From Dysgonamonadaceae bacterium (GTDB taxonomy: Bacteria > Bacteroidota > Bacteroidia > Bacteroidales > Azobacteroidaceae): a stretch of 40,552 nucleotides of DNA. Below are positions 25,446 to 40,552 of the stretch, in pieces. The notes under the pieces were generated by a model. The model was not told the origin of the DNA and made no database searches. It was given only the letters and a program-made list of their open reading frames with translations. The DNA lies in contig JAISOJ010000108.1 of NCBI GenBank assembly GCA_031275735.1, positions 1 through 40,552 of the forward strand, in the 5' to 3' direction. Numbering within the stretch: position 1 is the first letter of the stretch; each line of letters starts with the position of its first letter. The position numbers and the translations under genes are program-made.

Positions 25446-28400
25446 ATGAAAAAAAAACGAATGTCGCAAATAACGCTGCTTTGGGTCGTTTTACCGATAA
25501 CGGTTTTCGCCCAAAACCTCCTTTCTCCAAACGCATTGATTACCATTCAGCGGGAGAACGCAGCAATTGGCGAAATTCTGAAAGAAATTGAAGAACAGAC
25601 CGGATATTTTTTAGTCTTTTCCAAAGAAGATTTAAACATTAATCAGAAGGTAACGCTGAAAATAAAAAACGAAAAACTGGACAAAGCGCTTTCCCGCCTA
25701 CTTTCGCCTTTGCATATCACGTATATTATTATCGAAAACCACATCATCCTGAAAAAGCAGGCCCTTGAAAAAGAAGCAAACTCACCGGGCAAAACCGCTA
25801 CTGATTTTCCGGAAGAAAACATCGAAAAAACCTCTTCCGAAATGAAAGAAAAGTGGATCGAAGAGGTGGTCGTCATCGGTTACGGAACACACAAGCGCTT
25901 GAATGTTACCGGCTCCATCGCATCCATCACCGGAAGCCGTCTGGTACAATCGCATCAAGCCGATTTGTCCAATGCCATAGCCGGTAATTTGCCGGGACTT
26001 CGGAGCATACAAAAAAGCGGACGACCGGGATACGACGGCAGCATCATTGATATCCGGGGCTATGGCGACGATATCCTGACGATTGTTGATGGCGTAGAAC
26101 GTCCGTTTTCCCAAATCGACCCCAACGAAATCGAATCCGTTTCTATTTTGAAAGACGCATCGGCTGCGATTTATGGTTGCAAAAGCGCTAACGGCGTATT
26201 GCTCATTACGACTAAAAAAGGAAAAGAAACGCCTCCCAAAATCTCGTACAACTTCAATACCGTTTCCCAGAGTATTACCCGCTATCCGGAATACATGAAT
26301 GTATGGGATTACATGAACAGTTATAATGAAGCACGCCTCAATATGGCGCACTTGGGACAGACGCCCGCTTTCACTCCGGACGATATATCCCAGGCACAAA
26401 ATACCGACTGGCAAGAAGCGGTATTAAAAGATTTTGCCCCCATGCAGCAGCACAATCTGAATATTTCGGGTGGAAGCCCAACCACAAAATATTTCATTTC
26501 CGCCGGCTGCCTGAATCAGGACGGAATCTTGAAAACGAAAGATAATTTCCGCCGTTACAACTTCCGGTCCAATTTCAGCACGCTAATTGCCGAACGCTTA
26601 ACGGCAGAAGTTCAAATTGGCGGCCGGCGCGAACGGAGAGACGCGCCCGCTACCGTTGCCGGAGGAGGAAGCAATGATAATTTTTCTCACAGCATTTTCA
26701 AAAACATGGCAATGGCATTGCCATACAAAACAGTATATGCTAATAACAATCCGCTTTATTATAACGATTTGGGAAGCGAGCCAAACCCGGCGGCATTACT
26801 CGACCGCGACAAAGCGGGCGCCGACAGGAAGCAATACGACGAACTGAACGGGCAATTGGTTTTGAATTACGATATGCCATTCATCAAGGGATTATCCCTG
26901 AAAGCATTGCTGGCTTACGACAAACAAACAGACAACCAAGATATTTTTAAAAAGGCGTTTTCCGAATACACCTGGTACCCCGCCGAAAACACTTACGCCC
27001 CTGTGCCGGTAACTCAAACGACTGCCAAACTGGAAAAAATGCAACAGAACGACCTCGTTAACCAACAATATTCCATTTCGTACCGGAACCAGTTCGACCG
27101 GCATACAATCGCCGGATTAATACTGGGAGAAGTCCGCCGATTCAAACACAAAGAACACTCCGCCTATGGAGAATTGGAACTTTCATCCGTATCGGAACTG
27201 GATGCTGCGGAAAAAAACAAAACCGTCGACGGCGCTTCCACGCAATCGGCTAATATGGGATTTGCCGCGCGGCTTAATTATATGTATAACAATAAATATT
27301 TACTGGAAATAAGTTTCCGGAAAGATGGCGTAAGCAAATTTACCGGCGACGGCCGGTGGACATTTACATCGGCTGTTTCCGCCGGATGGAGAATTTCGGA
27401 AGAAAAATTTTTCAAAAATCATACCGGAACCGTTGATAACCTGAAATTAAGAGCCTCTTACGGAAAATTCCCTTTAGCCGGCGATTTGAGCGAAATCTAT
27501 TTCCTGGAAGGATACAACTATCCGGGGCGCGACGCCTTCGGATTTCCGCTTTACTTCGTTCAAGGCGAAAACAATCCGGTACTGGCGGCTTCCGACAGAG
27601 GATTAACCAATCCTTACCTTAGCTGGGAAAAGGTAAGCATAACGAATATCGGAATCGACGCTTCGCTCTGGGACAGCAAGTTTTATGCCGAGTGGGACGG
27701 ATTTTACCGGCTCCATACCGGCATGTACTTTACTCGAACCCAAACATTGCCCACTTCTTTCGGAGCCGTTATGCCGGACGAAAACTTAAATAGCGAAAGC
27801 GACCGGGGAATGGAACTCGTATTAGGCAGCAGGCACAGGATAGAAGAATGGCAACTCGACGTCAAAGCCGCTTTTTCCTGCACACGTAAAAAAAGAGAAT
27901 ACCAGGAATTACCCGAAGCAGGCAATCAATACGACTACTGGGTAAATCGCTACATGGAAAGTAATGGCCGCACAGCTAAAAATCCGTATCGCTGGGACAA
28001 TATCACCTGGGGATACGAAGCACTGGGGCAATTTCAAAATTATGAAGAAATCCTGCAAGCTTCCATTCAGGACGGACAAGGAAATACAACCCTCCTGCCC
28101 GGCGATATTAAATACAAAGACGTCAATAACGACGGATTAATCAATGATTTGGATTTAGTCCCCATCGGCAGGAACGACCGCCCAGAAATATTTTTCGGGC
28201 TTACACTCTCTTCCGTATGGAAAAATATCGACATAACGCTTTTCTTCCAGGGGGCGGCCAACTACACCTATACGCTTAATTACAGAGATGCATTTGCACA
28301 GGGAGGAATCGGAAACGGCTATGCCATGTATAGCGACCGCTGGCGCCGCGCCGATGTGAACGATCCGAACAGCGCATGGATACCGGGATATTTTCCCCCG

Positions 28401-28682
28401 ATCAGAGTAGAAAGTTACGCCGGCAATCAAGCGCCCTCCACATTCTGGAGTAAAAACACCGCATATCTGCGCCTGAAAACGATCGACTGCGGATACACTT
28501 TACCGCACGCAATCACTGCCAAAGCAGGAATACAGAAATTGCGCTTTTCCGTAAACGCATATAATTTATTGACATTCAGTCGGAAAGAGCTAAAATACGT
28601 CGATCCGGAAGGAGAAACCGGCTACGGCATCTATTATCCGCAAATGAAGTCCGTCGGTTTTGGAATCACTGTTGAATTTTAA
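25446..28682 (+). CDS. SusC-like TonB-dependent receptor with an STN signalling domain
   Basis: A 1078-residue outer-membrane glycan importer. Order: signal peptide (1-23), STN domain (about 26-103: NALITIQRENAAIGEILKEI ... KALSRLLSPLHITYIIIENH), a short hydrophilic linker, plug domain starting at EEVVVIGYGTHKRLNVTGS (about residue 139), then the beta barrel ending FGITVEF with the terminal Phe required for BAM. The carboxypeptidase-regulatory domain that usually lies between STN and plug in SusC proteins is missing; only a linker of some 35 residues is present. The STN domain pairs with the upstream FecR for trans-envelope induction. susD starts 6 bases after its stop. Substrate is inferred from downstream enzymes (mannosides). 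Confidence 0.95.
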   Translation: MKKKRMSQITLLWVVLPITVFAQNLLSPNALITIQRENAAIGEILKEIEEQTGYFLVFSKEDLNINQKVTLKIKNEKLDKALSRLLSPLHITYIIIENHIILKKQALEKEANSPGKTATDFPEENIEKTSSEMKEKWIEEVVVIGYGTHKRLNVTGSIASITGSRLVQSHQADLSNAIAGNLPGLRSIQKSGRPGYDGSIIDIRGYGDDILTIVDGVERPFSQIDPNEIESVSILKDASAAIYGCKSANGVLLITTKKGKETPPKISYNFNTVSQSITRYPEYMNVWDYMNSYNEARLNMAHLGQTPAFTPDDISQAQNTDWQEAVLKDFAPMQQHNLNISGGSPTTKYFISAGCLNQDGILKTKDNFRRYNFRSNFSTLIAERLTAEVQIGGRRERRDAPATVAGGGSNDNFSHSIFKNMAMALPYKTVYANNNPLYYNDLGSEPNPAALLDRDKAGADRKQYDELNGQLVLNYDMPFIKGLSLKALLAYDKQTDNQDIFKKAFSEYTWYPAENTYAPVPVTQTTAKLEKMQQNDLVNQQYSISYRNQFDRHTIAGLILGEVRRFKHKEHSAYGELELSSVSELDAAEKNKTVDGASTQSANMGFAARLNYMYNNKYLLEISFRKDGVSKFTGDGRWTFTSAVSAGWRISEEKFFKNHTGTVDNLKLRASYGKFPLAGDLSEIYFLEGYNYPGRDAFGFPLYFVQGENNPVLAASDRGLTNPYLSWEKVSITNIGIDASLWDSKFYAEWDGFYRLHTGMYFTRTQTLPTSFGAVMPDENLNSESDRGMELVLGSRHRIEEWQLDVKAAFSCTRKKREYQELPEAGNQYDYWVNRYMESNGRTAKNPYRWDNITWGYEALGQFQNYEEILQASIQDGQGNTTLLPGDIKYKDVNNDGLINDLDLVPIGRNDRPEIFFGLTLSSVWKNIDITLFFQGAANYTYTLNYRDAFAQGGIGNGYAMYSDRWRRADVNDPNSAWIPGYFPPIRVESYAGNQAPSTFWSKNTAYLRLKTIDCGYTLPHAITAKAGIQKLRFSVNAYNLLTFSRKELKYVDPEGETGYGIYYPQMKSVGFGITVEF

Positions 28683-28688
28683 TACTAT

Positions 28689-30617
28689 ATGAAACATCCA
28701 TCTTTCTCATCCGTCACTCGTCGCTTGTCACTTGTCACCCGTCACCCGTCACCCGTCACTCGTCACTTGTCACCCGTCACTCGTTTACTCGTCAACTCGT
28801 TTACTTGTTTACTCGTTTACTCGTCAACCTATCTACTCCTCACAAGCTGCGATGATTTTTTCGACGTCGAGCCGGCCGCCTTTATCGACAACGCGGAAGC
28901 CTGGAACGACGAAGAAACCGTCAATGCTATCCTGGCCGACGCTTACGCACGAATCAATCACGAAGATTTCTCCTATTTTGAAGGCTTTTGGGTATATTCA
29001 CTCTTGAATTTAAGTTCCGCCTCCGACGAAACCTGGCCTTCGTGGCAACAAGGAGAATTTGGAACAGGAGGAAAAATGCAGGTCATTTTCGGAGATACCT
29101 GGTTTTACATCTGGCCTTACGACCAAATCCGGAACTGCAACGAAATCATCCGGAAAACAGATCTTTCAGACCATGCACAGAAAGAACAGATCAAGGCAGA
29201 AATACGCTTCATCCGCGCTTACCATTATTTCCTTTTAGTCAAGCGATTCGGCGGCGTTCCACTCATCAGGGAGGTACAGGAATACCAGACGGAAAATACG
29301 GAAGCGCTGGAAATTCCCCGAAGCAAAGAACAGGAAATATGGGACTTCATTGCTGCCGAAATGGATACTATTGCCTTGATTCTGCCGCAAAAGCGCTCTG
29401 CCGACAATCGGAGCAGGGTTTCGCGCTATGCAGCTTATGCCTTGAAATCGAGAGCAATGCTCTATGCCGCATCCATTGCAAAGTATGGAAAAACGGAATT
29501 AAACGGTCTGGCAGGAATCGATGCTCCCCCCGAAAAATATTGGGAAGCTGCGGCAACAGCCGCCGATTCGGTTATCCAATCCGGAACCTATCATCTCTAC
29601 AATCAATATCCGGATAAAGCGGAAAATTACAACCGCCTGTTTTTAGACAAAAATAATGAAGAATATATATGGACCAAAGAATACCGGCTGCCTGAATCGG
29701 GACACAGTTTCGATCACATGACGACGCCTTACAGTTTTACGAGCGGATACGGCTGCGGATTAACCCCTGCACTCGAATTTGTCGAAGCTTACGAATACAT
29801 CGACGGCGCCCCCGGCAAACTCCCCGTTGAAAAAGAGGCAACGCCCATACAGTACGATCATCCCCTGGATTTATTTGCCGGAAAAGATCCGCGCCTGTTT
29901 GCATCGGTCTATTTACCCATGTCGAAATTCAAGGACGGAACAGTGGAAATACGTCGAGGCATGTACACCGAAGCAACCCGAAGTTATAAAGCCGCTTCCA
30001 ATTTAATGGAAAAAACGGTATTACAAGGCCGGAAAGATTCGATTACGCTAAGCGGAAAAGACGGCATTATACTCACATCCGATCCTACCAATACCGGCTT
30101 TTACCAGAAAAAATTCTATGACGAAAGCCGGAAAGATTTTTCCGAAAACAAATCCGACCAGCCCTGGCCGCTGTTTCGTCTGGCAGAAATGTATTTGAAT
30201 AAAGCGGAAGCCCAAATGGAATTAGGAAACAAAAAAGAAGCCGCGGAAGCGCTGAACCGGGTGAGGCAACGCGCCGGAATCCGCGTATTAACGACCGACG
30301 AAATCACGATGGAACGTATCCGGAACGAACGGAGGATAGAATTAGCATTTGAAGGTCACCGGTTTTGGGATTTGCGCCGGTGGCGAATAGCCGCTCCGGG
30401 CAGCGATCCCCGTGCGGGCATATTATCCCCCTTGCCGCCGACAGCGCTTTTCCCCTGGATTGTTTACGAAAACGGAAAATACGTTTTCACGAAAGCCTCC
30501 GGCGCTTCGGAAGTGCAAAAACCCAATAAGATTTTCCTTCAACGACATTATTACCTGAAATTGAAGCCCGAAGAAATAAATTCGAACAAAAAATTAATTC
30601 AAAATCCCGGATATTAG
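28689..30617 (+). CDS. SusD/RagB glycan-binding lipoprotein with a repeat-encoded leader
   Basis: A 642-residue surface lipoprotein that caps the SusC barrel. The SusD domain starts at CDDFFDVEPA (lipid cysteine Cys54) and runs through SDETWPSWQQG, EIRFIRAYHYFLLVKRFGGV, ADNRSRVSRYAAYALKSRAM and the C-terminal NRVRQRAGI / ERRIELAFEGHRFWDLRRW, the strongest SusD hallmarks. The first 53 residues are unusual: they are encoded by tandem repeats of about 7 bases (28711-28783, giving VTRHPSP-like heptads) and then 8 bases (28784-28828, giving LLVYSF-like residues), with the lipobox LLTSC behind them. No other in-frame Met exists before the lipobox, so translation must pass through the repeats from ATG 28689, 6 bases after susC. 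Confidence 0.93.
   Translation: MKHPSFSSVTRRLSLVTRHPSPVTRHLSPVTRLLVNSFTCLLVYSSTYLLLTSCDDFFDVEPAAFIDNAEAWNDEETVNAILADAYARINHEDFSYFEGFWVYSLLNLSSASDETWPSWQQGEFGTGGKMQVIFGDTWFYIWPYDQIRNCNEIIRKTDLSDHAQKEQIKAEIRFIRAYHYFLLVKRFGGVPLIREVQEYQTENTEALEIPRSKEQEIWDFIAAEMDTIALILPQKRSADNRSRVSRYAAYALKSRAMLYAASIAKYGKTELNGLAGIDAPPEKYWEAAATAADSVIQSGTYHLYNQYPDKAENYNRLFLDKNNEEYIWTKEYRLPESGHSFDHMTTPYSFTSGYGCGLTPALEFVEAYEYIDGAPGKLPVEKEATPIQYDHPLDLFAGKDPRLFASVYLPMSKFKDGTVEIRRGMYTEATRSYKAASNLMEKTVLQGRKDSITLSGKDGIILTSDPTNTGFYQKKFYDESRKDFSENKSDQPWPLFRLAEMYLNKAEAQMELGNKKEAAEALNRVRQRAGIRVLTTDEITMERIRNERRIELAFEGHRFWDLRRWRIAAPGSDPRAGILSPLPPTALFPWIVYENGKYVFTKASGASEVQKPNKIFLQRHYYLKLKPEEINSNKKLIQNPGY
28711..28828. repeat. Tandem 7-base then 8-base repeats in the susD leader
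   Basis: About ten units of TCAC(C/T)(C/T)G (7 bases; 28711-28783) run directly into about six units of TTTACTCG/TCAACTCG/TTTACTTG (8 bases; 28784-28828). The 8-base family is also found in the DUF3823 and GH2 genes. All of it is in frame and translated as part of SusD. Confidence 0.9.
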
Positions 30618-30620
30618 CGT

Positions 30621-31478
30621 ATGAAATTATTTATTTATCCAAGAGTTAACAAGTTAACGAGTAAACAAGTTAACGAGAGGCGCGAAGCGCTGCAAGTAGG
30701 CGCCTCCCTCTCGTCAGCTCATCAACTCGTTTACTCGTTTACTTGTTTACTCGTCTACTTGTTCACTGCTTGTGAAATCGACAACTACGAACCGCCCACC
30801 GGCGGATTGTACGGACAAATCGTAGACGCGGAAACCGGCGATCCTGTGCCGCAGCCGCTCCCTTCCGAGGGAGGACTTCGCCTGCGGTTTTACGAGGCGG
30901 ACAGAGAAAACGCTATCGAACAGCATTTTTACGCCCAGGCAGACGGGTCGTATAAAAACACCCATTTGTTTAACGGGCCTGTACGCTTAGTATTGGAACA
31001 GCGGAATTTTTTCCCGATTGATACGGTAGAGTTGAATATTCAGGGACAAACAAAGAAAGACATTGAAGTGATACCCTACGCCCGAATCAAGGTTAAAAGC
31101 CTGCAAGCAGACGGAAATCTCATCACCGCCGGTTTTACGATCGAAAGAAGCAAAAACCGGTCGTATGAACGGCTTCACCTGTCGCAATATCTCCTGCTCT
31201 GGCACGCCTCGCCTTACATCGACAGGCAAACGGTTAATTTTTCAGGGCAAATTTCGACCGGATTTCCGGATGAGCCGGACGCTTTGAACCGGCTGCATGA
31301 CGTCGCGCTGGATTTGTCGGACGACACAAACAGAAAATTATTAAAAGAAAAAGCAAATATCATATCGGGAAACGGAAACATAATTTATATCCGCCTCTGC
31401 CTTATTACATACGACGAAAGCAGCGATGCGATTTATGCCAATTACAGTTCGACATATCCAATTAAAATAGCATTATAA
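30621..31478 (+). CDS. DUF3823-type surface lipoprotein with a repeat-encoded leader
   Basis: A 285-residue protein following susD by 3 bases. DUF3823 proteins commonly sit right after susD in Bacteroidetes loci and are presumed surface glycan-binding lipoproteins; the mature part opens CEIDNYEPPTGGLYGQIVDA, followed by ETGDPVPQPLPSEGGLRLRF, the family's N-terminal beta-sandwich pattern, and a second domain from about residue 158. The leader (residues 1-50) is atypical. It contains VNKLTSKQVN from an 8-base array in reverse orientation (30644-30676), a GC-rich centre, and QLVYSFTCLLVYLFTAC from the forward array (30722-30762), where Cys51 is the lipid-modified residue. Translation from ATG 30621 through the repeats is required to make the lipobox. 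Confidence 0.82.
   Translation: MKLFIYPRVNKLTSKQVNERREALQVGASLSSAHQLVYSFTCLLVYLFTACEIDNYEPPTGGLYGQIVDAETGDPVPQPLPSEGGLRLRFYEADRENAIEQHFYAQADGSYKNTHLFNGPVRLVLEQRNFFPIDTVELNIQGQTKKDIEVIPYARIKVKSLQADGNLITAGFTIERSKNRSYERLHLSQYLLLWHASPYIDRQTVNFSGQISTGFPDEPDALNRLHDVALDLSDDTNRKLLKEKANIISGNGNIIYIRLCLITYDESSDAIYANYSSTYPIKIAL
30644..30762. repeat. Inverted 8-base repeat arrays in the DUF3823 leader
   Basis: Left arm of four AGTTAAC(A/G)/AGTAAACA units (30644-30676), a centre with GAGGCGC/GCGCCTC stem (30677-30706), and a right arm of five TTTACTCG-type units (30722-30762). The arms are reverse complements, so the transcript can fold into a long hairpin. Confidence 0.88.
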
Positions 31479-35156: not shown

Positions 35157-38100
35157 ATGAAACAATCATGTTTAACAAATGCACAAAAAAGAGTGACAAG
35201 TGATAAGTTAACGAGTAAACAAGTAAACGGGTTAACGAGTAAACAAGTAAACGAGTTAACGAGTAAACAAGTTAACGGGTTAACGAGTTGGCGAGTAAAC
35301 AAGTTAACGAGTAAACAAGTTAACGGGAGGGACGCATCCCCTTGCGGCGCTTCGCGCCACTCGTTTACTCGTTTACTCGTCAACTCGTTTACTTGTGGAT
35401 TACTTTCCATTTCGCTTTCTGCACCGGCCGTAGCGCAGCAAAAATATTCCCTAAACAGTGATAATCCAGCTATCATTTGGGAAATCAAGCCGAAAGACGA
35501 TTTGACGCCCAAAACCGGATTCGACATTTCGACGCCGGGATTCGATAACGCCGGATATGTAAAAGGCGTCGTACCCGGAACGGTTTTTACGGCCTACGTA
35601 GAAGCCGGCCTCGCAGCCGACCCCAATTATGGCGACAATATCTACCTGGAAGACGAATCGTTTTACAATCGACCCTTCTGGTACCGCACCGAATTTGATT
35701 GGCCGTCTTCCGAAGAAAACGGCCGGCGGGTTTGGCTGCATTTTGACGGCGCCAACCGGTTTGCCGACTATTACTTCAACGGAGAAAAACTTTCCGGAAC
35801 GCCCGCTTCCACCAAAGATGTAAGCGGACACATGATCCGCACAAAATACGACGTGACGGATTTAATCAACAAAACAGGAAAAAATGCAGTTGCCGTCCTG
35901 ATTACCGACGCCGACCAGAAAAAACACAGGGACGAACAATCGTGGTGGGGCGACAATGTATTCGGCAACTGGGCAAGCCCCACCTATCTCGCCGCCGGCG
36001 GCTGGGACTGGATGCCGTACGTGCCCGGACGACTGGCCGGAATAACCGGCAATGCCTATCTGATGATTACCGGCGACGCCGTAATAGAAGACCCCTGGAT
36101 AAGAGCAGACTTGCCCACCTGTCAACAGGCAGAAATCTCCATTGCCGTCCACATCAAAAACGCAGCCTCCGAATCGAAAGAAGTGATCCTCGACGGCGTA
36201 ATCAACCCCGGAAATATACAGTTTTCAAAAACACTCGCCCTCCCGGCCCAAACAACGCTTGCCGTCAAACTGAATAAAGACGAATACCCGCAGCTGGCAA
36301 TTAACAATCCGAAACTCTGGTACCCGAACGGATACGGCAACCCCGATTTATATACCTGCCGCTTAACCTGCTCGGAAGACGGAAAAGAATCGGATGCAAA
36401 AACAGTTTCATTCGGAATAAAAAAATACGAATACCGGCTTATCGAAAATTCAAAAAACATCCCCGTACTGACGCTCTTTATAAACGGCCAAAAACTGTTC
36501 TTAAAAGGCGGCAACTGGGGCATGAGCGAATACCTTCTCCGCTGCCGCGGCAAAGAATACGAAACCCGGATTTTACTTCATAAAGACATGAACTACAATA
36601 TGATCAGGCTGTGGACAGGCTGTGTCACCGACGATGAATTTTACGATTACTGCGACCAATACGGACTGATGGTTTGGGACGATTTTTGGCATTACTTTTC
36701 CTATTTCGGAGGACCCGACAAACCGGAAGATTTCAAGTCGAACGCCCTCGACAAAGTCAAGCGCCTGCGAAACCATCCCTGTATCGCCGTATGGTGCGGG
36801 GCGAATGAAACAACCCCGGCCGACGACCTGAATAATTATTTAAAAGACTTGATCGCCGCCGAAGACAACAACGACCGCCATTACCAACCCTGCTCCAATT
36901 CGGGCGGCCTGTCAGGAAGCGGCTGGTGGCTAAACAAAACGCCCAAAAGTCATTTCGAATCATCGGGAAGCAACCTGGGCGACGGCTATCCCTACGGCTC
37001 AACCTACGGTTACGGCTTGCGGACGGAAATCGGAACCGCCACCTTCCCCACATTCGAAAGCGTAAAAGAATTTATTCCCCCCAACGACCATTGGCCCCTG
37101 CCGAGCGACGAGCAGTTGAAAAACGACAACAATACGGTCTGGAACAAACATTTTTTCGGAAAGGAAGCCGCAAATGCCGGCCCCGACACCTACCGGAATA
37201 CGGTCGACCGGCAGTTTGGAGCCTCTTCCGGACTGGAAGAATTTTGCGAAAAATCACAACTCCTGAATATCGAAGTAATGAAAGGCATGTACGAGGCCTG
37301 GAACGACAAAATGTGGAACGACGCCACAGGCATTCTAATATGGATGAGCCAATCGGCCTATCCCTCCTTCGTATGGCAAACTTACGATTACTATTACGAT
37401 GCAACCGGAGCCTACTGGGGAGCCAAAAGAGCCTGCGAACCGCTGCATATTCAGTGGAACAGCAGCAACTATGCCATACGGGTGATTAATACGACTCCCG
37501 GCGACTGTAACGGATTGACAGCCAGGGCGATTATTTATGATTCGACAGGGAAGGAAATTACCTCAACCGCCAAACAGGTGAATGCGCCGGCCGGTATGCC
37601 CGCAAACTGTTTCCAGTTAAGTAAATCGACGGCAAACCTTCCGGACGTCCATTTCCTGAAACTGATACTGACCGACGCTTCCGGTAAGCTTGTTTCCGAA
37701 AACTGGTATTTGAAAGGCAAAACGGAATACGACTACACGCAATTGAAATCCATTCCCCGAGCCAATCTCTCGATAGCCGTTGACGGGAAAACCGAAAACG
37801 GCCAATACCTCCTGGACGCTTCCATCACCAATGCGGAAAATTCACCCGCTTTGGCCTATGGCGTCCGCCTGCGTGTGGTCAACGCCATTACCGGCGAACG
37901 GATACTTCCCATTTTCTTGCCGGACAATTATCTGTTGATCCTGCCGGGCGAAACCAAAAAAATCCAAATCACATTCGACGCCGCCCTCCTGAAAGGCGCA
38001 GAACCCCAATTGATGGTAAAACAATTCCTGCAGCCCGAAGAATCCGTTTCGGTCATTCAATCGCTTGCCGCAGAATATTTACCCGATATTAACATATACC

Positions 38101-38297
38101 CGAATCCGGCCGGCAACACCTTCCTCATCGACTGCCCGACGACCATCGATAAAGTCACGGTTTTTAATTCCTCCGGCAATAAAGTCTATGCCGGATCGGA
38201 AAAACGAATTGATGCGGGAGCGCTTCCCCGGGGCGTTTATTTTGCAAATATCAAAACAGACAAACAAATCGTATGCAAACGCATTATAAAAAACTAA
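35157..38297 (+). CDS. GH2 beta-mannosidase-like enzyme with repeat-encoded leader and T9SS tail
   Basis: A 1046-residue secreted glycoside hydrolase of family 2, closest in layout to exo-beta-mannosidase / endo-beta-mannosidase and exo-beta-glucosaminidase enzymes. The GH2 sugar-binding domain starts near residue 105 (PGTVFTAYVEAGLAADPNYG), with a beta-sandwich middle and a TIM barrel from about 435; acid/base Glu551 is in WCGANETTP, nucleophile Glu624 in RTEIGTATFPTFES. The end (about 975-1046; INIYPNPAGNTF ... GVYFANIKTDK) is a type A T9SS sorting domain, so it should be exported across the outer membrane. The leader is extraordinary: residues 17-57 are LTSKQVN(G/E) octads from an 8-base array, then RLLVNSFTCGLLSISLSAPAVA from the opposite array, with predicted signal peptidase cleavage after Ala93. 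Confidence 0.9.
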   Translation: MKQSCLTNAQKRVTSDKLTSKQVNGLTSKQVNELTSKQVNGLTSWRVNKLTSKQVNGRDASPCGASRHSFTRLLVNSFTCGLLSISLSAPAVAQQKYSLNSDNPAIIWEIKPKDDLTPKTGFDISTPGFDNAGYVKGVVPGTVFTAYVEAGLAADPNYGDNIYLEDESFYNRPFWYRTEFDWPSSEENGRRVWLHFDGANRFADYYFNGEKLSGTPASTKDVSGHMIRTKYDVTDLINKTGKNAVAVLITDADQKKHRDEQSWWGDNVFGNWASPTYLAAGGWDWMPYVPGRLAGITGNAYLMITGDAVIEDPWIRADLPTCQQAEISIAVHIKNAASESKEVILDGVINPGNIQFSKTLALPAQTTLAVKLNKDEYPQLAINNPKLWYPNGYGNPDLYTCRLTCSEDGKESDAKTVSFGIKKYEYRLIENSKNIPVLTLFINGQKLFLKGGNWGMSEYLLRCRGKEYETRILLHKDMNYNMIRLWTGCVTDDEFYDYCDQYGLMVWDDFWHYFSYFGGPDKPEDFKSNALDKVKRLRNHPCIAVWCGANETTPADDLNNYLKDLIAAEDNNDRHYQPCSNSGGLSGSGWWLNKTPKSHFESSGSNLGDGYPYGSTYGYGLRTEIGTATFPTFESVKEFIPPNDHWPLPSDEQLKNDNNTVWNKHFFGKEAANAGPDTYRNTVDRQFGASSGLEEFCEKSQLLNIEVMKGMYEAWNDKMWNDATGILIWMSQSAYPSFVWQTYDYYYDATGAYWGAKRACEPLHIQWNSSNYAIRVINTTPGDCNGLTARAIIYDSTGKEITSTAKQVNAPAGMPANCFQLSKSTANLPDVHFLKLILTDASGKLVSENWYLKGKTEYDYTQLKSIPRANLSIAVDGKTENGQYLLDASITNAENSPALAYGVRLRVVNAITGERILPIFLPDNYLLILPGETKKIQITFDAALLKGAEPQLMVKQFLQPEESVSVIQSLAAEYLPDINIYPNPAGNTFLIDCPTTIDKVTVFNSSGNKVYAGSEKRIDAGALPRGVYFANIKTDKQIVCKRIIKN
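35206..35396. repeat. Large inverted 8-base repeat in the GH2 leader
   Basis: Fifteen units of AGTTAACG/AGTAAACA/AGTAAACG and variants (35206-35327), a GC-rich centre (35328-35358), then four to five units of the reverse complement TTTACTCG/TCAACTCG (35359-35396). The left arm shows a 24-base higher-order rhythm. All of it is translated in the GH2 frame. Confidence 0.92.
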
Positions 38298-40201: not shown

Positions 40202-40552
40202 TTATATGGCGCCGTATTCATTTTGTTTAAGAATTTCAGAGACTTTGTCTATCGTTAATCCGGTAATGGAGGCAATAGTTTCGACAGCCAGGCCGGCTTT
40301 GTTGCCTGCTATTACGACTTCTGTTTTTCCTTTTTCCAATCCAACGGCTTCTCCTTCCGCACGTCCTTCCGCACGTCCTTCCGCACGTCCTTCTGCTCGT
40401 CCTTCTGCTCGTCCTTCTGCCCGTCCTTCTGCCCGTCCTTCCGCTCGTCCTTCTATCATTGAGGTTTTTATTACACTTTTTTGGTACCGTAATGCTTCTA
40501 TATGTGCGTCGTATGCTTCCCGTTCCGCTTTGTTCAACCGGTCTTTCCGCAA
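40202..40552 (-). CDS. Rpn-family nuclease/transposase, C-terminal part with RAEG repeats
   Basis: The 3' portion of a gene that continues beyond the window; 116 residues are visible on the minus strand and no reliable start is seen. The sequence (KAEREAYDAHIEALRYQKSV) matches the end of the catalytic region of Rpn/PD-(D/E)XK proteins, which are DNase-like recombination-promoting factors. It is followed by eight RAEG tetrapeptides (encoded by 12-base units, about 40354-40451) and a C-terminal helical module (NKAGLAVETIASITGLTIDKV) of a kind repeated at the ends of these proteins. The 12-base units keep the frame whatever their number. The catalytic domain itself is not in view. Confidence 0.75.
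   Translation of the reverse strand: MRKDRLNKAEREAYDAHIEALRYQKSVIKTSMIEGRAEGRAEGRAEGRAEGRAEGRAEGRAEGRAEGEAVGLEKGKTEVVIAGNKAGLAVETIASITGLTIDKVSEILKQNEYGAI

Follow-up and report, generated by a model that had tools for sequence, protein, structure and literature searches.

The window analysed here, the whole stretch of 40,552 nucleotides, is contig C6 of a draft genome of a Dysgonamonadaceae bacterium (2.43 Mb, 114 contigs, 76% complete). It carries a row of genes of polysaccharide-utilisation type, encoding FecR, a SusC-like receptor, SusD, a DUF3823 protein, enzymes of families GH130, GH92 and GH2, and a GDSL lipase. The features relevant to the present account are as follows.

25446–28682, + strand: SusC-like TonB-dependent receptor (STN, Plug) with an ordinary N-terminus without an array (Pfam, translation)
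28689–30617, + strand: SusD/RagB lipoprotein ORF of 642 aa, read through the array (Pfam SusD_RagB 4e-53, SusD-like_3 2e-18)
28689–28709, + strand: start of the dispersed leader element, with two mismatches to ATGAAACAWYCMTGTWTWWCA (pattern match)
28709–28778, + strand: 7-bp block, consensus CGTCACT, with ten 7-bp spacings, coding for VTRRLSLVTRHPSPVTRHLSPVT (TRF, unit finder)
28779–28840, + strand: 8-bp block, consensus ACTCGTTT, with seven 8-bp spacings, encoding the more hydrophobic LLVNSFTCLLVYSSTY (TRF, unit finder)
28839–28850, + strand: L-T-S-C, which we take to be a lipobox, with Cys54; sequence alignable with orthologs starts here (ortholog alignment)
30621–31478, + strand: DUF3823 lipoprotein ORF, its signal peptide likewise array-built (Pfam, translation)
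30641–30678, − strand: reverse 8-bp array of 5 units, which the ORF reads as the polar VNKLTSKQVNE; it makes up the left arm of a pair of inverted arrays
30725–30762, + strand: forward 8-bp array of 5 units, encoding the hydrophobic LVYSFTCLLVY; right arm of the same pair
35157–38297, + strand: GH2 family enzyme with a Por secretion tail and a leader element at its N-terminus
35157–35177, + strand: start of the leader element of the GH2 gene (exact pattern match)
35189–35328, − strand: reverse array of 18 units that makes up the left arm of a long inverted pair
35359–35396, + strand: forward 8-bp array of 5 units, right arm of the long inverted pair

The idea that the DUF3823 lipobox was made by the array was dropped, since an ortholog carries the same FTAC. 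The array-encoded N-terminus of the GH2 enzyme resembles the Pfam family ALTTAQ_rpt at 20.8 bits, below the cut-off of 26.4. Near the end of the window (40352–40453) lies a 12-bp in-frame tandem repeat, giving (EGRA)n in a minus-strand ORF; it resembles the variable tail seen in a family of transposase-like nucleases.

The SusD protein begins MKHPSFSSVTRRLSLVTRHPSPVTRHLSPVTRLLVNSFTCLLVYSSTYLLLTSC, and upstream of LLTSC it is nearly all tandem repeat. The unit finder places 18 hexamer cores between 28709 and 28840, with ten 7-bp and then seven 8-bp spacings; the count in the initial annotation, about ten 7-base and six 8-base units at 28711–28828, was thus right to within about one unit. TRF scores the array at 97 for period 7, 107 for period 21, 71 for period 8 and 80 for period 16. 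The high identity first ascribed to the units was generous, although the repeat itself is real: identity at lag-1 is 0.81 in the 7-bp block and 0.71 in the 8-bp block, and the tract is impure, with three identical units as its longest run. Exact periodic stretches reach at most 26 nt (3.7 copies) for the 7-bp period and 18 nt for the 8-bp period, and the longest exact stretch of all, at 37 nt, follows a frame-neutral 21-bp period.

In frame 0 the array is open through to the lipobox and the SusD body. Frame +2 is also open and gives a like peptide, with a stop just past the array (...LVNLSTPHKLR, then stop), while in frame +1 the first codon is a stop. Since neither 7 nor 8 is a multiple of three and the array is open into the body, gain or loss of one unit would shift the SusD body out of frame, as had been proposed. 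The native ATG has been lost and there is no Met from the array to the lipobox, so a native start cannot rescue such a change. The geometry of a contingency locus in front of a surface lipoprotein was accordingly well recognized, with unit lengths indivisible by three and a leader open in a second frame. The array is real, but it is not peculiar to SusD; the fetched stretches of the source genome contain 63 non-redundant arrays, this one included.

Most coding copies of the unit lie inside a 90-bp leader with the consensus-like protein MKHSCLTNTQEHENEYSFTRQLVYSFTHFR. An intact leader supplies an ATG of its own and contains five 8-bp units flanked by a 12-bp inverted repeat (positions 35–46 and 79–90); the native ATGAAA start of the gene follows directly. 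A search of the source genome with the leader-start pattern ATGAAACAWYCMTGTWTWWCA at up to three mismatches gave 79 matches, against one for the reversed-pattern control; 66 were retained after 13 matches with two to three mismatches had been removed by eye from the match string, and four of those retained are doubtful (C8:20304, C34:591, C52:13259 and C105:57500). Among 58 genomes (the source and its relatives) the leader body was found only in the source (29 copies) and in G013 (three). A wider sample of 393 genomes from the order, in which G013 is not listed, likewise gave no copy in the 392 others. The leader was unreported in the open-access literature searched, where the unit and peptide strings gave only one unrelated paper.

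The leader has a marked preference for its target. ATGAAA is the native start at 26 of the 27 standard leaders and ATAAAA at the remaining one, whereas 48 of 146 control ORFs begin with ATGAAA (p 2e-10). A T precedes the leader in 54 of 66 copies. A same-strand ORF opens within 400 nt of the leader in 62 of the 66, and these copies lie at start codons rather than within gene bodies. In one nested insertion (contig C72, locus L022, 3151–3241) the outer leader sits at the ATGAAA of an inner leader, with one gene downstream. A target-site duplication is indistinguishable from the target itself. Across 25 copies the 12-bp stem shows no covariation beyond that of shuffles: 484 cells are paired, shuffling gives 482 on average, and 136 of 500 shuffles reach the observed value. 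No Rfam family matched at gathering score between 24000 and 40552 of the window, and a structured RNA element was rejected on this ground together with the stem result. Mobilisation by a Y1/RAYT enzyme was disfavoured: the Y1_Tnp profile, the one transposase family searched, gave a single match in the source genome (76% complete), below the cut-off, and no mobilising enzyme was found with it.

Orthologs in related genomes provide the empty sites. The SusD orthologs of four relatives (G001, G016, G058 and G012) have no array; identities across the four are 85, 73, 69 and 68%. They carry short ordinary lipoprotein signals, for example MKQVKYIFLFLGILLVSC, and the SusC–SusD order is kept. G016 is rich in arrays overall, yet its SusD ortholog lacks one. 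The DUF3823 orthologs in three of these four genomes are likewise without an array. A conserved switch at SusD was rejected, the four nearest orthologs found being free of the array. For the acyltransferase gene at C19:1561, 33 relatives were matched and 29 loci fetched, and all 29 are without the leader; these orthologs start at or about the Met that directly follows the leader in the source genome. The gene at C111:6727 has nine orthologs and none has the leader (9/9), including one (L284) whose SusC-like context is cut by a contig end but whose gene start is present. Since the relatives lack the leader and start at the downstream Met, the leader is an insertion at the start codon.

The reading frame through the leader has mostly been retained. 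Where a same-strand gene lies downstream, 52 of 62 leaders are fused to it in frame, 27 being of standard length and 25 altered. Of the 35 altered-length leaders, 25 keep the frame (chance about 12; binomial p = 4.6e-6 against 1/3). This null is crude because copies share ancestry and dead genes go unseen, and the 35 include, as out of frame, four rows whose ORF is non-adjacent or spurious-looking (C31, C77 and C105, without a Met, and C99, with one). Pure 8-bp arrays in the standard place within the leader have 4, 5, 11, 12, 14 or 17 units. Where the unit number is 2 mod 3 (5, 11, 14 or 17), 26 of 28 leaders are fused, both exceptions having 5 units, whilst fusion is seen in 0/2 leaders with 12 units and in 1/2 with 4 units. 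The leader at C42:12516 measures 81 nt instead of 90, having lost pre-array bases and one 8-bp unit with the frame kept. These 2 mod 3 counts point towards differences by multiples of three units, the pattern which the initial annotation had set against a switch, seen here across loci and not within a population.

Where the native start is gone, the frame has been kept. Among altered leaders without a native Met, 15 are in frame and the three out-of-frame rows have an ORF that is non-adjacent or spurious-looking. A native Met is present in 10 in-frame altered rows, counting C87:23256, where it is a later Met. All six genes that directly adjoin an out-of-frame leader have retained a native MK start, so these genes are not simply off. 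At four leaders (C42:4081, C54:17911, C54:9521 and C10:32954) the former start codon has degenerated into one for Ile or Thr, and translation from the leader ATG is therefore very likely there. The frame through the leader is probably under purifying selection where the native start has been lost. Changes in leader codons comprise 84 nonsynonymous and 30 synonymous (38 of 66 copies), and the nonsynonymous to synonymous ratios in two subfamilies, 2.6 and 3.1, stand against expected values of 3.6 and 3.9. Amino-acid change in the leader is near neutral, and it thus seems to be the frame, not the sequence, that is held. Higher-order three-unit repeats were considered as proof of selection on frame, as pooled means had hinted, but were left unused after a proper test: three-unit periodicity in coding arrays gave a shuffle p of 0.07 and Mann–Whitney values of 0.066 versus intergenic and 0.022 versus named-genome arrays. 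No such periodicity is seen in the SusD array itself.

The unit itself extends well beyond the leader. The 8-bp unit pair ACTCGTTTACTCGTTT has 205 matches in the source genome (109 + 96) at up to two mismatches and the 7-bp form has 55 (31 + 24) at up to three, with none for either reversed-pattern control. The pure forward 8-bp unit is stop-free in all frames and reads TRLLVYSF in each, and the forward 7-bp unit, also stop-free, reads RHSSLVT in all three. Pure reverse units contain a stop, and open variants of them code for polar, basic peptides, as at 30641 and 35189 of the window. Placed before a gene, an inverted pair would therefore specify a polar and then a hydrophobic stretch, the order found in signal peptides.

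Of 38 genomes of the genus, 12 have arrays of the 8-bp unit; the source genome gives 296 matches, and relatives reach up to 349. The arrays occur also in named genomes of at least Prevotella, Muribaculaceae, Dysgonomonadaceae, Bacteroidaceae and Hoylesella, and, in a single or few contigs among the matches listed, in Niastella, Psychromonas and Anaerolineae-type bins. The exact pattern had no matches in viral contigs. Outside the source genome most arrays lie between genes, and inverted pairs are frequent: of 103 arrays classed from 80 of 115 loci, those fetched, 66 were intergenic and 37 fell into other classes, with eight edge arrays excluded. Seventeen were classed as N-terminal, most of these reflecting TTG starts within arrays, upstream of the real ATG. 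In the fetched loci L053–L072 and L082–L161, the 8-bp arrays of other genomes are often inverted pairs near gene ends. In arrays of the named genomes, pooled unit identity is highest at lag 2.

The leader is best read as a short repeated element that has inserted at the start codons of dozens of genes, most of which encode exported proteins. We consider it probable that this is a dispersed repeat which targets start codons and is tolerated as an N-terminal extension, that it has replaced most of the SusD signal peptide, and that its frame is under purifying selection. The element would insert in front of a native ATGAAA, preferring the junction between T and ATGAAA. Because forward units are stop-free and encode one and the same peptide whatever the frame, the insert would be tolerated as an N-terminal extension. 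A growing array could then supplant the native signal peptide, which may have happened in SusD, and once the native start was lost the frame through the array would have to be kept. The SusD array appears to be a diverged and expanded copy of the dispersed leader repeat, although SusD retains no more of that leader than the opening ~20 bases, as a two-mismatch match in the right place. To judge from the sequence, the array repeats probably serve as most of the SusD signal peptide, and the protein would be exported in this way.

The idea of a switch deserves consideration beside this. As a contingency locus, the array would toggle SusD, together with other leader-bearing surface proteins, by slipped-strand changes in the number of 7-bp or 8-bp units. 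The unit lengths, the second open frame and the lack of a rescue ATG at SusD all suit such a mechanism, and unit counts do differ between loci, a few by non-multiples of three. Nevertheless, altered leaders are mostly in frame (25/35), and where a leader is out of frame beside a gene the native ATG has been kept. The SusD tract is impure, its longest exact stretch has the frame-neutral 21-bp period, and the array is missing from all four near orthologs. We saw no sign of the switching that the initial annotation had envisaged, and the contingency explanation is unlikely. A bolder combination would be a mobile element with a frame-agnostic tandem core that seeks start codons and adds an N-terminal leader to dozens of exported proteins, with arrays that can become signal peptides and unit steps that provide frame switching or dosage control distributed across the surface proteome, bypassed by a native ATG at some loci and by none at SusD; this we hold to be distinctly unlikely.

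It might alternatively be supposed that the leader is a functional peptide, in effect an extended signal peptide selected for its sequence and spread by recombination among exported proteins. Its placement at N-termini recurs, and a crude hydrophobicity score rates the start that follows as signal-peptide-like for 25 of the 27 standard leaders. This export bias is however indistinguishable from that of ATGAAA-starting genes generally (37/48; p 0.12), amino-acid change in the leader is near neutral, and only two of the 58 genomes, the source included, have the leader at all, making this proposal highly improbable. An artefact of short-read assembly, with repeats wrongly joined or collapsed where genes start, might be suspected in a draft in 114 contigs with repeats over 100 bp. 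Most leaders, though, are just 90 bp long, with unique flanks and in frame; a second genome (G013) has them as well, and the insertion point coincides with the start codon of relatives. Such an origin is extremely improbable, while unit number in the longest arrays could be misassembled. The dispersed, start-codon-targeting repeat thus remains the preferred reading.

A number of parallels can be drawn with known systems. Simple-sequence contingency tracts are homogeneous and have been shown to vary, and contingency-type repeats are reportedly the subject of a paper on Haemophilus HMW1A. The SusD array resembles these in being a tandem repeat in or near the gene of a surface protein with a unit not divisible by three; it differs in being impure, with at most three identical units in a row. 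Rickettsia palindromic elements are small dispersed repeats found in frame within many unrelated genes and translated (PMC10969869). The likeness lies in the in-frame fusion of a dispersed repeat to many unrelated ORFs (here 52/62). The Rickettsia elements lie in gene bodies and are palindromic, whereas the present element sits at the start codon, has a 7/8-bp tandem core, and may replace a signal peptide with its array. As to palindromic structure, its consensus contains the 12-bp inverted repeat, the covariation of which does not exceed that of shuffles. The BrickBuilt MITE of Porphyromonas gingivalis has a tandem core between leader and tail, small inverted ends and 19 copies (PMC4596501). 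It too is a Bacteroidales element with a tandem-repeat core, but its units are 23 bp, always intergenic and promoter-bearing, in contrast to the coding 7/8-bp units here. TAACTGA heptamers of Beggiatoaceae, Cyanobacteria and some Bacteroidetes occur near start codons and are sometimes translated near protein ends (PMC4679880). These are likewise dispersed short tandem repeats near start codons; however, the unit is another one, is mostly intergenic and has forward stops in every frame, whilst the present unit is open forward in every frame and fused. We class the leader as a dispersed in-frame repeat that differs on a defining point from each of the last three: from the Rickettsia elements in their gene-body insertion, from the MITE in its being intergenic and from the TAACTGA repeats in unit sequence.

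The leader offers a countable case of repeat DNA becoming signal peptides. A unit that is stop-free, frame-independent and fairly hydrophobic does little harm when inserted before a start codon, and some 66 parallel insertions in one genome, set beside the empty sites of relatives, make the cost of frame changes readable. The question of phase variation is directly open to long-read testing. The purest array seen, at C77:12056–12149 in the source genome (G000), has seven identical 8-bp units in a row and adjoins a leader copy unfused to any gene; as a site of real slippage it is the most promising candidate in the genome.
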